DNA of 33,626 nucleotides, from IMG/VR virus record IMGVR_UViG_3300037189_004204, positions 1-33,626 of that record; one strand, written 5' to 3'. Source of the DNA: a virus. A program made the translations under genes and the position numbers. Shown here piece after piece: positions 10,966-23,081 of this stretch. The notes under the pieces are model-generated. The model had not been told where the DNA came from. It saw nothing but the letters and a program-made list of their open reading frames with translations, and ran no database searches. The stretch's first letter is position 1, and the number at the start of each line of letters is the position of its first letter.

Positions 10966-10989
10966 ATGCCTCCCCTACAAGGAGGTCCT

Positions 10990-11640
10990 ATGGACAAATA
11001 TTATGTGTTAGTCGTTGGTAACGGAGTTACCAGCCGCGCCAACCTAGAAGCGCTTATGGAAGACCACTATTACGCTAATGGCCCTAAAGGAACATTGGTA
11101 TTAGCGTTTGATGGCAAACCTAGCCAAGGGCAAGTATTTGCAGCCCAGCTAGCCAAAGATAAAAATATAGATATCTTGGTTTGGAACACCAAAGAAGACG
11201 CTGAAAGCATTCCGCCTTGCAGTGTTACCCAAGCCGATAACCCATTGTTATCTGCAATGACATATATCGAAGATGACAAATCTTGTGCGTTTATCCTGTG
11301 GTCAGACGAAGACCCAACTTGTATGAACGCGCTGGCTTACGCAAAAGATTTGGGCATTGCCTGTTTTGATTTAACAGACGGGTTGAACAAGCTAGTTTCA
11401 ACCGCCGACATTAAAGCGGAGGAAGCTAAGCCGGTTATGCCAAAGGTTGAGATGGCTGAAACAGAGCCTGAAGAAGACCCAGAGGACGACGTAGACGAGG
11501 ACGACGAGGATATGGACGAGGAAGACGAAATCTACGAGGACGTCTACCTGGGCCTAGAAGCGTTTGCCCGTCTTATAGCTAAGGCTGTGGTGGCAGAGAT
11601 GAATGCCTCAAATCAGCCTCAGAAGGGCTCTAAGGCGTGA
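10990..11640 (+). CDS. Unknown protein with Rossmann-like N-terminus and acidic tail region
   Basis: I chose ATG 10990 because a near-perfect AAGGAGGT precedes it; the upstream in-frame ATG 10966 has none. The 216-residue product starts 'MDKYYVLVVGNGVTSRANLE', an alternating strand, glycine and helix pattern that suggests a nucleotide- or ligand-binding alpha/beta fold. No family was recognised. Residues about 145-185 are almost wholly Asp/Glu, and a helix with a basic end follows. Such acidic stretches can mimic DNA or bind basic partners. The gene is the first of the replication block and its stop overlaps the GTG of the initiator-like gene. Confidence 0.6.
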   Translation: MDKYYVLVVGNGVTSRANLEALMEDHYYANGPKGTLVLAFDGKPSQGQVFAAQLAKDKNIDILVWNTKEDAESIPPCSVTQADNPLLSAMTYIEDDKSCAFILWSDEDPTCMNALAYAKDLGIACFDLTDGLNKLVSTADIKAEEAKPVMPKVEMAETEPEEDPEDDVDEDDEDMDEEDEIYEDVYLGLEAFARLIAKAVVAEMNASNQPQKGSKA

Positions 11641-12449
11641 TTACAGCCCGTGCCCTAGGTGTCTATGTGTACTTAAAGGCTACAGAGGCTCCTATAAGCG
11701 CTGAGAACCTGGCTAGGGTGTTCCCCGAAGCTGGGAGAAAGTCCTTTTTGGCTGTCTTGAAGGAGCTGAGGGAGGCTGGTTTAATAATCACTAGCCGAGC
11801 GGTCATCAACGGCAGGTACGTAACCTATTCCAAGATAGTGGATGGGAGTCCCATCAGGGCACTCCTATCACAACAGACACAGCAGAATAGCTATATACCC
11901 AATATAGCTAATTCATATATAAGCAAACCGAATAGCGAAACAAGTTCGCAGGAGGGCACTCGCGTGAGAGAGTATTATGAAAGTGAAGAAGACCGTTTAG
12001 AGGCACAGGCTAAGTTCTATGCCAAGAAGAAAGCTGAGAAGGCAGAGGCTCACGCAAAACGTCAGTCTGAGAGTATGGTTCGCCGCAGTGAAGAGAATGC
12101 CTTCGGTTGGTCTGTTACAGATTCCACGTTTGAGTTTGCTGCTCAGATGCATAACCTTTGGCATATTGAGCCTTGGCAAGTTACCCGTAGTAGGTTTAGG
12201 TTTGCATTAGCGACTAAGCGCTCGGAGTACGGAACTACGGGTGATATAGAGATAGTGATGATGAAGCTGTTCTTTGACAAGATTAAGCACGATACTAAGC
12301 TTCACGACCCAGAGATGGTTTGGAAGAAGTTTATTATTCAGTTTGGCGTATTGCTAGAAGATGCAAAGAAGTCTATGGTTACTCAAGAAGAAGTTGTTGC
12401 TGAAAGAGAAGAAGCTAAGAAGTCTAGAGATTGGCTAAGGAATGTTTAA
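11637..12449 (+). CDS. Winged-helix, replication-initiator-like protein
   Basis: This 270-residue protein starts with a winged-helix DNA-binding domain (residues 1-70: 'ALGVYVYLKATEAPISAENLARVF', 'KSFLAVLKELREAGLI', 'GRYVTYSKI'). A Gln/Asn/Ser-rich linker follows, then a highly charged coiled coil (about 115-150, Lys/Ala/Glu), and a helical C-terminal domain with 'HIEPWQVTRSRFRFAL'. The next gene is a DnaC-like helicase loader. The pair therefore resembles initiator-plus-loader arrangements such as lambda O/P or DnaD/DnaI systems; the role is inferred from structure and position. Like lambda O, the linker-coding DNA is AT-rich and repetitive (see the repeat at 11885-11949). The start is GTG, four bases overlapping the upstream stop. 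Confidence 0.55.
   Translation: MITARALGVYVYLKATEAPISAENLARVFPEAGRKSFLAVLKELREAGLIITSRAVINGRYVTYSKIVDGSPIRALLSQQTQQNSYIPNIANSYISKPNSETSSQEGTRVREYYESEEDRLEAQAKFYAKKKAEKAEAHAKRQSESMVRRSEENAFGWSVTDSTFEFAAQMHNLWHIEPWQVTRSRFRFALATKRSEYGTTGDIEIVMMKLFFDKIKHDTKLHDPEMVWKKFIIQFGVLLEDAKKSMVTQEEVVAEREEAKKSRDWLRNV
11885..11949 (+). repeat. AT-rich inverted repeats inside the initiator-like gene; candidate replication origin
   Basis: A perfect 9-bp inverted repeat, TAGCTATAT (11888-11896) and ATATAGCTA (11902-11910), is followed by an AT-rich run. A second inverted repeat lies at 11935-11949 (GCGAA and TTCGC around five bases). GAATAGC occurs twice (11885-11891 and 11930-11936). The clustering in the linker region of the initiator-like gene parallels lambda O, whose gene contains the origin. 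Confidence 0.35.
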
Positions 12450-13131
12450 GTTAGACGAGGTAAAGCTAAGACGTCGTTCTTGGATTAAGATGGCAAACAT
12501 TCCATCCGCTCGTATTGGTTGGACTTTAGATGACTGCGTTGATATTGAGCCGGATGATGTAGCTGACATACGTGGATGGCTTAAGTCAGTGGAGAACAAA
12601 ACTGTTATTCGCGCTAACGGTCTACCTTTTTGCGGTAAAGGCTTACTGTTTTGGGGAACACCGGGACAAGGAAAAACAACATTAGCGTTGTCTATTATTC
12701 AAGAAGCAATGCTTAATTTTTCTTTAGATTCTTTTGATGTTGCTGAGAATAAAACTCTTATTCGCCCTTGTTACTTTGCTACCTTCAATGATGTACTTGA
12801 TTTAAAGGGTGCAATAATGGACGGGCCAACAGATGACCAAGAGGTTATATACCAAGGTATGTTAGGCGAATGCCTAAACGACGCTTTTAATATTCGTCTT
12901 TTAGTTATAGATGATGTAGGTAAAGAGCACGCTACTTTAACTGGTTGGCAAAAAAATACACTGCATGATGTTTTACGTACTCGCTTTAACAACGGACTGC
13001 CTACTATTGTTACTACAAATGTCAGGCGAGCAGATTGGGCCGCTCTATATGGTGATGCCACAGAAAGCTTTGCAAATGAAGCGTTTCAGTATTTTCCAAT
13101 TACTACAGTTAAAGGCGACCTACGTAAATGA
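12442..13131 (+). CDS. DnaC/IstB-like AAA+ helicase loader
   Basis: This 229-residue protein has a Walker A motif 'WGTPGQGKTT' (71-80) and Walker B 'LLVIDDVG' (153-160), spaced as in the DnaC/DnaI family. Near the C-terminus it has 'GLPTIVTTNV', a sensor-1-like strand ending in Asn. These loaders open the DnaB ring and place it at the origin. The gene lies between the initiator-like gene and the DnaB-like helicase, supporting that role. The ATG is preceded by AAGG and overlaps the previous gene by 8 bases. The arginine finger was not located with certainty. Confidence 0.85.
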   Translation: MFKLDEVKLRRRSWIKMANIPSARIGWTLDDCVDIEPDDVADIRGWLKSVENKTVIRANGLPFCGKGLLFWGTPGQGKTTLALSIIQEAMLNFSLDSFDVAENKTLIRPCYFATFNDVLDLKGAIMDGPTDDQEVIYQGMLGECLNDAFNIRLLVIDDVGKEHATLTGWQKNTLHDVLRTRFNNGLPTIVTTNVRRADWAALYGDATESFANEAFQYFPITTVKGDLRK

Positions 13132-13442
13132 AAGAGGGCAACGTGAGTAAGGAACCACGCCTAGTACAAGTATTTCTTAGTCAGGCAACTGTTCCAGGCC
13201 CAGGTATTTATGAAGTGTCTTCTACGGTAAATGGAGAGCTTTCTTGTACGTGCCCAGGGTTTAAAAGCCGCGGTTCTTGCAAACATATTAAGTTTGTAAA
13301 CAACAGGCTTGAGAACAACAATGGAAACTATCCACTAGAGATATCTAGCCGTGCTACTCAAGAAGACGCTGAAAAAGCAAAACTGTCTAATGAAGACTTT
13401 CGTGAGTTTATTATTAAGTTTGGGAAGATAGAGGTTTTTTAA
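13128..13442 (+). CDS. SWIM zinc-finger protein
   Basis: This 104-residue protein has the SWIM pattern CxC-x(8)-CxH at residues about 38-51 ('CTCPGFKSRGSCKH'). SWIM domains bind zinc and often mediate DNA or protein contacts in recombination and replication factors. The position between the helicase loader and the helicase suggests a replication accessory role, which is inference. The start is ATG 13128 (ATGA overlap); GTG 13143 is an alternative. The stop is TAATG-coupled to the next gene. Confidence 0.7.
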   Translation: MKEGNVSKEPRLVQVFLSQATVPGPGIYEVSSTVNGELSCTCPGFKSRGSCKHIKFVNNRLENNNGNYPLEISSRATQEDAEKAKLSNEDFREFIIKFGKIEVF

Positions 13443-13849
13443 TGAGAAAAGGGGACATCAGTAATGAGCTCCCCAAAAGAATACTCGTAGCAACAGATGT
13501 ATTTTTAATTGTAGAGCTCACTGTAAAAAAGAGGTTCAAGGTAGTTCCTGTTCCTCAAGTAGACAAAAAGATTAGAAGAGAGATACTTAGCTATCTTTAC
13601 CTGTATACAACCAGGAACGGGATAACTTTAGAGTTAATCTCTTTTGATTTAGATGATGAAGAACTTAATAAAGTAATTGAGATGCTTGACAGCATGGGTA
13701 CTAATCCGTTTAGATACTTCTCGGCATACGGTTCCGTTAACCAACTGGTTGACGAGCTTCCTTATCGCCCCGAAGTAATAGGTGTTTTAGATAAGCCTGA
13801 ACGTCTATTACGATACGGTCACTGGGGATTGGATATAAATAGTCTATGA
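13442..13849 (+). CDS. Unknown protein in the replication operon
   Basis: This 135-residue protein of unrecognised family alternates strands and helices: 'KRILVATDVFLIVELTV', 'RREILSYLYLYTT', 'GITLELISFDLDDEELNKVIEM'. It ends with 'RPEVIGVLDKPERLLRYGHWGLD', which faintly recalls the C-terminal part of HAD-type proteins, but no DxD catalytic motif could be shown. GAGG before the ATG and the overlaps on both sides (TAATG, ATGA) place it in the loader-helicase operon. Confidence 0.65.
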   Translation: MRKGDISNELPKRILVATDVFLIVELTVKKRFKVVPVPQVDKKIRREILSYLYLYTTRNGITLELISFDLDDEELNKVIEMLDSMGTNPFRYFSAYGSVNQLVDELPYRPEVIGVLDKPERLLRYGHWGLDINSL

Positions 13850-15072
13850 ATAACGAAGCAAGATTACTTAGCAAGGTAGTCGAAGAGCGCAACATAGGGC
13901 TGATGCTTGAAAGAAACATCAACGAGTCCTGGTTTCCCGATGCCGCAGATAAGAAACTATTTAAGTTCCTTCACGAGCATTACTCTAACTATCAAGAATG
14001 CCCCAGCCTTGAAGTTATTCAAGAAAACTTTCCTACTTATGCTTTGCTACAGGTAGACGACAGTATTCATTATTTACTGGACCGTTTAATAAATGCCCGT
14101 AGAAAGATAACAATTGTTAACACTATCGGCTTAGCTTTAGACACACTTGAGAACCAAAAAGACCACGAGGCAGCACTTACGGCTTTAGAGCGCGGTCTTA
14201 TAAAGTTAGAAGAAGAAGGCCTTAACCGTTCTAACGATTTAGAAATTACGGCTGCTGCAAAGAACGCTAAAGAAGAATACGAGTATCGTAAGAACAACCC
14301 TGGACTATTAGGTTTGCCAACAGGCTTTAGAACAATGGATGACGCTACATCCGGTCTACAGCCAGGGCAATTGATTGTTATTGTTGCTCCACCTAAAACA
14401 GGTAAGTCAACTCTTGCTTTGCAGATTGCTATTAACTGTCACCTTAACGGCAAAGTTCCTATGTTTATGTCTTTTGAGATGAGTAACTCAGAACAGAAGA
14501 GTCGTTACTTTGCAATGCGCGCTCGCATATCCCATCGCCGTCTTATGACAGGTACTTTGACCCAAGAAGAAGAGGGTCGATACTTAAAGATTGCTTCAGG
14601 TATTGAGCAAATGAATGACAAGTTTTGGTTTGTCGATTCAGCTAATGGTCAGACAGTAAGCGCCGTAGCAAGCAAGATTCAAAGCAAGAACCCAGACATT
14701 ATCTTCATTGATGGTACTTATTTGATGATTGATGAGCTAGGGGCAGATGCTGGTACACCACAGGCAATTACCAACATCACCCGTTCTCTTAAACGCCTTG
14801 CGCAAAAGGTTAATAAGCCAATTGTTATCTCTACTCAAGCTTTGACGTGGAAGATGAAGAAGGGACAAGTGAGCGCTGACTCTATTGGTTACTCTTCTTC
14901 GTTCCACCAAGACGCTGACGTTATCTTTGGTTTGCAGCGCGAGGATGAAAACGTAGATGACACTCGTTTATTGCGTGTTATTGCTTCTCGTAACGGCGGT
15001 CTAAGCGAAGTATCTTTGATTTGGGATTGGAACACCGGACAGTTCCGCGAGGTCAGCGAGGAAGACCTATGA
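13846..15072 (+). CDS. Replicative DNA helicase, DnaB-like
   Basis: This 408-residue protein has a helical N-terminal domain (1-130) and a RecA-type core. The core starts 'GLPTGFRTMDDATSGLQPGQ', the usual DnaB entry. Walker A is 'APPKTGKST' (181-189), 'MFMSFEMS' follows, and the Walker B strand is 'IIFIDG' (285-290). 'KPIVISTQ' and 'SFHQDADVIFGLQR' match the late DnaB motifs. It is slightly shorter than bacterial DnaB. It would unwind the fork with the primase encoded two genes downstream. The ATG shares ATGA with the previous stop; there is no strong Shine-Dalgarno close by. Confidence 0.9.
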   Translation: MNNEARLLSKVVEERNIGLMLERNINESWFPDAADKKLFKFLHEHYSNYQECPSLEVIQENFPTYALLQVDDSIHYLLDRLINARRKITIVNTIGLALDTLENQKDHEAALTALERGLIKLEEEGLNRSNDLEITAAAKNAKEEYEYRKNNPGLLGLPTGFRTMDDATSGLQPGQLIVIVAPPKTGKSTLALQIAINCHLNGKVPMFMSFEMSNSEQKSRYFAMRARISHRRLMTGTLTQEEEGRYLKIASGIEQMNDKFWFVDSANGQTVSAVASKIQSKNPDIIFIDGTYLMIDELGADAGTPQAITNITRSLKRLAQKVNKPIVISTQALTWKMKKGQVSADSIGYSSSFHQDADVIFGLQREDENVDDTRLLRVIASRNGGLSEVSLIWDWNTGQFREVSEEDL

Positions 15073-22717: not shown

Positions 22718-23081
22718 CAGCGCCGATTGGTTCTCACGTAAGATGGGTTCACCAGCACCAGTTCAACCACAACAGCCACAGTATCAACAACCTGTGCAAC
22801 AACCTGTGCAACCACAGATGCCTCAGTATCAGCAACCAACTATGCCTCAGTATCAAGCACCTGCAGCTCGTTGCCCTGGATGCGGTAGCGGTAACTATTT
22901 AGGCGCAGAGAATACTAAGCCACGTTGTTATGACTGCGGTTACCCAATTCAACAGTCAGGTAGTGGTATGGGGACAGGTATTGTAGGCAATGGTCCTAAA
23001 GCAAGTGGTCCCGCTACACCAGCTACTCAAGTAGCAACAGGCGGATGGAATCCAACAACAATCGTAGGGAAAATAGAATAA
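22710..23081 (+). CDS. Pro/Gln-rich zinc-ribbon protein
   Basis: A 123-residue protein. Residues 15-50 are built from repeated Pro-Gln-Tyr units, visible as DNA direct repeats at 22755-22860. A zinc ribbon follows ('CPGCGSG' and 'CYDCGYP'), then a Gly/Pro/Thr-rich tail. It sits between polymerase and RecA genes. The repeat region is likely disordered, and its length may vary between strains. No specific function known. Confidence 0.7.
   Translation: MSNSADWFSRKMGSPAPVQPQQPQYQQPVQQPVQPQMPQYQQPTMPQYQAPAARCPGCGSGNYLGAENTKPRCYDCGYPIQQSGSGMGTGIVGNGPKASGPATPATQVATGGWNPTTIVGKIE

Follow-up and report, generated by a model that had tools for sequence, protein, structure and literature searches.

The locus examined here raises the question of whether a cluster of short repeats in the middle of a protein-coding gene, at positions 11885-11949, forms a replication origin inside the gene of its own initiator, as a sequence-only reading had proposed. 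The DNA analysed (the window) is the whole of the viral IMG/VR record IMGVR_UViG_3300037189_004204, 33,626 bases in length, with nearly all of its genes on the plus strand. The gene that holds the repeats is an open reading frame on the plus strand (11637-12449) encoding a protein of 270 amino acids. An AlphaFold2 model of this protein, built on an alignment of 36 relatives, comprises a winged helix (residues 1-70), a linker with pLDDT below 50 (residues 75-110) that is predicted to be disordered, and a helical C-terminal domain. In structure comparison the winged helix resembles DNA-binding proteins of the MarR/PadR type (best Z 9.2 over 85 residues, rmsd 3.8), and the C-terminal domain found no convincing fold match in the PDB, an absence there excluding nothing.

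The gene is followed on the plus strand by a DnaC-like helicase loader (12442-13131; phrog_50, E 1e-26) and, further on, by a DnaB-like replicative helicase (13846-15072; phrog_19, E 1.6e-61; PF03796), so that the context described in the earlier reading, a winged helix and linker followed by a DnaC-like loader, is correct. With this winged helix and these neighbours the gene at 11637-12449 is a probable replication initiator. The 270-residue protein matched no PHROG family at E 0.001 and no Pfam family at E 0.1, and on the strength of these profile searches it is not assigned to the lambda O family. Among the annotated phages compared, the DnaB-like helicase is nearest to those of Streptomyces phages (∼33% identity), from which an actinobacterial host seems likely. 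Between the loader and helicase genes, 13128-13442 encodes a small protein with a SWIM zinc-finger match, and two short tandem repeat arrays with units of 12 and 24 bp lie in coding sequence at 22785-22855. A tRNA scan found no tRNA genes and a promoter scan returned no sites.

The repeats themselves are present as described. The perfect 9-bp inverted repeat consists of TAGCTATAT (11888-11896) and ATATAGCTA (11902-11910), separated by 5 nt, and is part of a longer, AT-rich imperfect palindrome with one bulge, GAATAGCTATAT-ACCCA-ATATAGCT(A)ATTC, which spans 11885-11914 (hp1, codons 84-93) and contains two ATAGCTA units in direct repeat, at 11887 and 11904. An A-rich spacer (11915-11934) ending in ACCGAATA leads to a second, shorter palindrome, GCGAA-ACAAG-TTCGC (hp2, 11935-11949), with a stem of 5 bp and a loop of 5 nt. 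The repeated GAATAGC lies at 11885-11891 and 11930-11936. The AT-rich run is there as well, the best 45-bp stretch of the linker being 73% AT, and only 0.5% of the record's 45-bp windows are richer; across contigs the linker falls within the top 0.93% or better in all eight. Many other places in the window nevertheless reach or exceed 73%, and AT content by itself is unremarkable. A further perfect inverted repeat of 9 bp (I2) occurs in the window some 300 bp from this one, and the window's repeats, short as they are, could be due to chance if judged alone. That they exceed chance follows from their conservation, in the form of hairpins in the linkers of relatives and a suppression of synonymous change.

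Relatives were gathered by three protein searches of viral contigs, which gave overlapping sets of 14, 70 and 80 loci. The first two sets yielded 41 non-redundant genes; 26 apparently new loci of the 80 in the third were examined, 11 of which proved redundant, and the remaining 15 brought the total to 56. No relative was found in one scan of bacterial and archaeal genome contigs, nor in a collection of annotated phages for the two family members queried. Six of the relatives (L008, L010, L023, L024, L028 and L077), compared with the window and L004, carry differing winged-helix modules on similar linkers and C-terminal halves, a pattern of module swapping at the linker. In the Streptomyces phages BRock, LuckySocke, GiJojo and pSt2308 a stand-alone protein of 151-158 residues is encoded just 5' of the DnaC-like loader, with one small gene between the two in BRock; its gene lies at 3001-3477 in L192-L194 and at 715-1176 in L121, and in L192-L194 the early codons also hold a GC-rich inverted repeat. 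This protein is perhaps the C-terminal domain in separate form, judging by an hhalign profile comparison that is suggestive at most (P 0.057) and a weak fold match to the BRock protein (E 2.9). Single-sequence comparison of the C-terminal domain with it gave no match, and the small gene preceding it in the Streptomyces phages showed nothing, by eye, to suggest a winged helix.

One of the checks proposed with the original claim was whether the repeats are conserved at synonymous positions; they are, sharply and over the linker only. In a first comparison of nine genes, 6% of comparable synonymous sites differed in codons 81-92, against ∼25-60% outside the linker. The main analysis used 733 gene pairs among the 56 genes, pairs that share sequences and hence are not independent, with correction for amino acids and with the C-terminal domain set to 1.00 by construction. 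On this scale the ratio of observed to expected synonymous change is 0.94 in the winged helix and 0.66 just before hp1, falls to 0.43 in hp1 (0.40-0.45 on leaving one out), 0.29 in the spacer and 0.25 in hp2, and recovers to 0.63 over a Shine-Dalgarno sequence and start codon described below and to 1.11 in the codons right after them. As it is the disordered linker that bears the constraint, the structure of the protein offers no reason for it.

The architecture is conserved along with the codons. The hp1 palindrome extends over some 30 bp, and its bulge of a single base is conserved; among 19 distinct 30-mers from 29 of the 56 genes, all 76 cells of the four outer pairs are complementary, as are 49 of 57 cells of the next three. 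Its inverted-repeat score exceeds that of shuffles (P 0.0125) and its direct-repeat score does not clearly do so (P 0.0995), and we therefore describe hp1 as an imperfect palindrome with repeat units. There are two related units, of the AATAGC type in most genes, of the ACAGTAGT type in L071, L074 and L129, and of a variant of the latter in L130; in the linkers of these four genes the two ACAGTAGT-type units are placed symmetrically between the outer and inner stem. The spacer usually ends in ACCGAATA or GAAAGAGTA. hp2 occurs in 51 of 56 genes, its perfect stem measuring 5-7 bp and its loop 3-5 nt, and is absent from L052, L053, L059 and L070, and from L073 by the loop rule. In those 51 genes complementarity is kept across at least 15 different stem sequences, among them GCGAAC, CTCGGG, ATCGGG, CTTGGG, CCTTGG, CATTGG, CCTGGG and GCGGAT, as well as TATCGAC, TATCGAT, CACAAAC, GCAACGC, TCCCGGC, CCCGAC and CACGGAC.

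The two palindromes are also held at a set distance: of the 45 genes in which both anchors were located, 42 have the start of hp2 50-52 nt after hp1. A hairpin with a perfect stem of at least 6 bp and a loop of 3-4 nt is present in 49 of the 56 linkers, compared with 5.5 expected from shuffling of synonymous codons; the window gene is among the seven without one. When both strands were searched, the spacer motif (ACCGAATA or variants) followed by a hairpin was found once per contig in eight of eight contigs, always inside the initiator-like gene, and in the lists inspected, searches with the element pattern matched only contigs that have such a gene. Synonymous suppression confined to the linker, together with conserved geometry and complementarity, is what a cis-acting element overlapping coding sequence should display, and that 11885-11949 is some cis-acting element is nearly certain.

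A second feature, absent from the earlier reading, seems to share the linker. A Shine-Dalgarno sequence, AGGAGG (11950-11955, plus strand), stands 8 nt 5' of an in-frame GTG at codon 110, and initiation there is predicted to give a C-terminal form of 161 amino acids (11964-12449, plus strand). In or just past the linker an in-frame NTG codon with a Shine-Dalgarno match of at least 4 is found in 52 of 56 genes; when a match of at least 5 is required, 37 of 56 remain, where synonymous shuffles would give 16.0. Val, Leu and Met codons lying 3-11 nt past GGAG take the NTG form (ATG, GTG or TTG) in 55 of 58 cases in the linkers and in 24 of 86 elsewhere in the genes, in which 152 of the 771 Val codons are GTG and 166 of the 1309 Leu codons are TTG. 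The gene thus has a conserved internal ribosome-binding site in frame, the property by which an in-frame dual initiator is recognised. The start lies right behind hp2 in some clades and ∼40-60 nt further on in others; L052, L053, L059 and L070 have the Shine-Dalgarno sequence and start without hp2, and L055, L056, L129 and L130 have hp2 without a Shine-Dalgarno match. This variable position, and the occurrence of each feature alone in a few genes, indicate that the linker houses two distinct features, the palindromic module and the start.

Control of this internal start by RNA is the main rival to the origin reading. On such an account hp1 and hp2 would be RNA hairpins regulating how the transcript is translated or processed, and the processed message would yield the C-terminal form and the loader. 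It would explain why hp2 is followed directly by the Shine-Dalgarno sequence and NTG in the window, with these close by in most relatives, and why pairing in hp2 persists despite changes of sequence. The manner in which the pairs change points the other way. Covariation is clearest in a subset of 15 sequences (13 distinct) from the clades around L041 and L177, where the 17 pairs are 99.5% paired among 221 cells, compared with 23-40% in slid controls. Changes on both sides occur at seven pairs (32 cells), one-sided changes at none, and there are no G-T intermediates; a fast-evolving RNA helix should pass through G-U pairs, and the pattern favours palindromic DNA over RNA, although repair by template switching from arm to arm could look alike. 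The mismatches in the middle of the hp1 stem (no G-T, two A-C and six others) are the opposite of what a sense-strand RNA should have; one G-T was seen in hp2, at the sixth pair of L042. The alignment that includes the window (A8) has high complementarity but is nearly invariant, with double changes at one pair only, so the window's own subset gives little evidence of covariation. Folding energy of the whole linker gave no signal against synonymous shuffles (56 genes; mean z -0.49 for the linker and -0.52 for a control stretch), folding was not better on the sense strand, and an Rfam search of 11500-12600 returned no match at E up to 1. With hp2 and the start also separable across clades, by the shift in distance and by either standing alone, we consider RNA control rather unlikely, if still the strongest of the competing accounts.

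On a second alternative the linker has no origin function and is the joint at which recombination brings exchangeable winged-helix modules onto a C-terminal half that stays stable; repeated exchange would keep divergence low there and template-switch correction would keep the palindromes, template switching being able to alter both arms together without G-T intermediates. In keeping with it, 89 gene pairs have winged helices more than 60% different and an hp1 no more than 20% different, and L008 resembles L004 closely in its C-terminal half but has a different winged helix. But the sequence of hp2 turns over in parallel in many clades with its geometry kept, and exchange alone does not account for each genome having a single palindrome at a set spacing, so that we judge a mere joint improbable. 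Still less probable is that hp2 is an intrinsic terminator of antisense transcription, with the complement of ACCGAATA or GAAAGAGTA as its T-rich tail: the minus strand at 11949-11935 does pass a terminator-like scan, and the stems of terminators are free in sequence, yet the two sites of that scan match the 1.9 obtained from shuffles, there is little T in the tail, whose conserved form TATTCGGT is not a T tract, and hp1 and the spacer are left unexplained. That only the protein linker is conserved and the repeats arose by chance is scarcely credible. The stretch is coding, and single repeats of this length do arise by chance, as I2 illustrates, but the constraint acts at synonymous sites, after amino-acid correction and in a segment predicted to be disordered, and hairpins are present in 49 of the 56 linkers where synonymous shuffles give 5.5.

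GC skew, the other check proposed, was followed in eight of 17 long records (the window and seven of the 16 others), three of the eight in part, and is not decisive. The raw cumulative minimum lies 459-1544 bases (0.46-1.54 kb) upstream of the linker in seven of the eight contigs, the global minimum of G007 being elsewhere, but the skew at fourfold-degenerate sites does not change sign at the element in any of the eight; the raw minimum therefore reflects the amino-acid composition of genes on the same strand, and we rejected GC skew as proof of an origin. An acidic tandem repeat of the GACGAGGAA type at 11485-11528, within the upstream gene (10966-11640), contributes to the raw purine skew. 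Co-variation of hp1 was assessed in 47 of the 56 genes, after nine without the anchor motif had been dropped. Variation in the sequence of hp1 goes with the C-terminal half (partial r 0.43) and not clearly with the winged helix (partial r 0.06, P 0.065), so that it is only assumed that the winged helix recognises hp1. This is unlike what recognition of the lambda type predicts, and counts against the origin reading.

Lambdoid origins sit in the middle of the O gene, and the lambda iterons are inverted repeats and two iterons with the AT-rich region make up the minimal unwinding unit (PMC7466680). The parallel with lambda that had been put forward stands in the order of parts, in the gene neighbours and in the order of elements along the linker. 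As in lambda, the element lies in the linker-coding middle, between the DNA-binding and loader-recruiting halves, and the loader gene adjoins; the lambda O linker likewise has dyad repeats, an A-rich tract and then a 7-bp palindrome (GTCAGAG...CTCTGAC). It fails in homology, in iteron number and in clear co-variation between the repeats and the DNA-binding domain. PHROG and Pfam searches detect no homology of the initiator here with lambda O, the element has two short related units and not four 18-bp iterons, and hp2 is much tighter (loop of 3-5 nt) than the lambda palindrome and is conserved in its own right. Unlike the window gene, lambda O has no in-frame start preceded by a Shine-Dalgarno sequence past codon 105 under the same rule. 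A control on eight lambda O genes, counting codons that vary only synonymously (none of 28 in the iterons, 5 of 116 in the N half and 19 of 133 in the C part), had too little variation to be more than consistent with synonymous constraint.

Other systems offer further likenesses. SPP1 has oriL within gene 38 (PMC6316719), in a system of gp38, the gp39 loader and the gp40 helicase; SPP1 has a second copy, oriR, and the spacer-hp2 motif here has none in eight of eight contigs. Homology with this system was compared by family searches only. For P1, synonymous changes in the AT-rich part of repL are reported to lower RepL-driven replication (PMC9948254). Like that oriL in repL, the present element is an AT-rich stretch of an initiator gene, and the logic is the same as that of the synonymous constraint seen here. 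Internal starts that give N-terminally truncated initiators are described for pIGRK RepR/RepR', RK2 TrfA-44/33 and R6K pi (PMC6854812). Those in-frame pairs are plasmid proteins; the predicted phage short form differs in losing the whole winged helix and keeping the C-terminal half. Our search of the literature found no paper on the linker element or its internal start, which is not proof of absence.

Synonymous constraint, fixed geometry, compensatory change, a single copy per contig and a conserved Shine-Dalgarno sequence and start are established by computation. The proposed origin is borne out as far as synonymous conservation and a conserved palindromic architecture go, and is not helped by the fourfold-site skew, which does not flip, or by hp1, which does not clearly co-vary with the winged helix; it is from the former that we infer an origin. 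The order of parts, the DnaC-like and DnaB-like neighbours, the AT richness and the single copy all fit one. Against it, there are two related repeat units only, rather than four or more iterons, five of the 56 genes lack hp2, and other 45-bp stretches of the window are equally AT-rich. On balance the evidence tips, slightly, towards 11885-11949 being a replication origin inside the initiator gene in the manner of lambda, SPP1 and P1, here in a family of genes that is new.

Such an origin might work as follows. The winged-helix half of the initiator would bind the paired repeats of hp1 and the AT-rich tract would melt, whereupon, as gene order and family matches suggest, the helical C-terminal half could pass the site to the DnaC-like loader and DnaB-like helicase. 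hp2, free in sequence but self-complementary, would form a cruciform, or a hairpin of single-strand DNA, by which the opened site is marked or positioned. From the internal ribosome-binding site would come a C-terminal form devoid of the DNA-binding domain, which could either add loader-recruiting domain or damp initiation. A bolder proposal, which we offer tentatively and regard as possible rather than probable, is that this is a new and compact type of origin, in which about 65 bp of initiator linker codons would hold two DNA palindromes at a fixed distance, with arms that undergo wobble-free paired changes and are not defined by any recognised sequence. An internal start tied to this origin would make the initiator form that lacks the DNA-binding domain, and the same codons would then serve the origin, the initiator and a possible regulator of initiation.

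If the origin reading is true, a large group of uncultured phages would acquire a predicted origin, and origins could be sought in metagenomes by looking for collapsed synonymous change in the disordered linkers of initiators. It would also predict an initiator made of two proteins, and would raise the question of why a palindrome of arbitrary sequence is held at a fixed distance from the region of unwinding.
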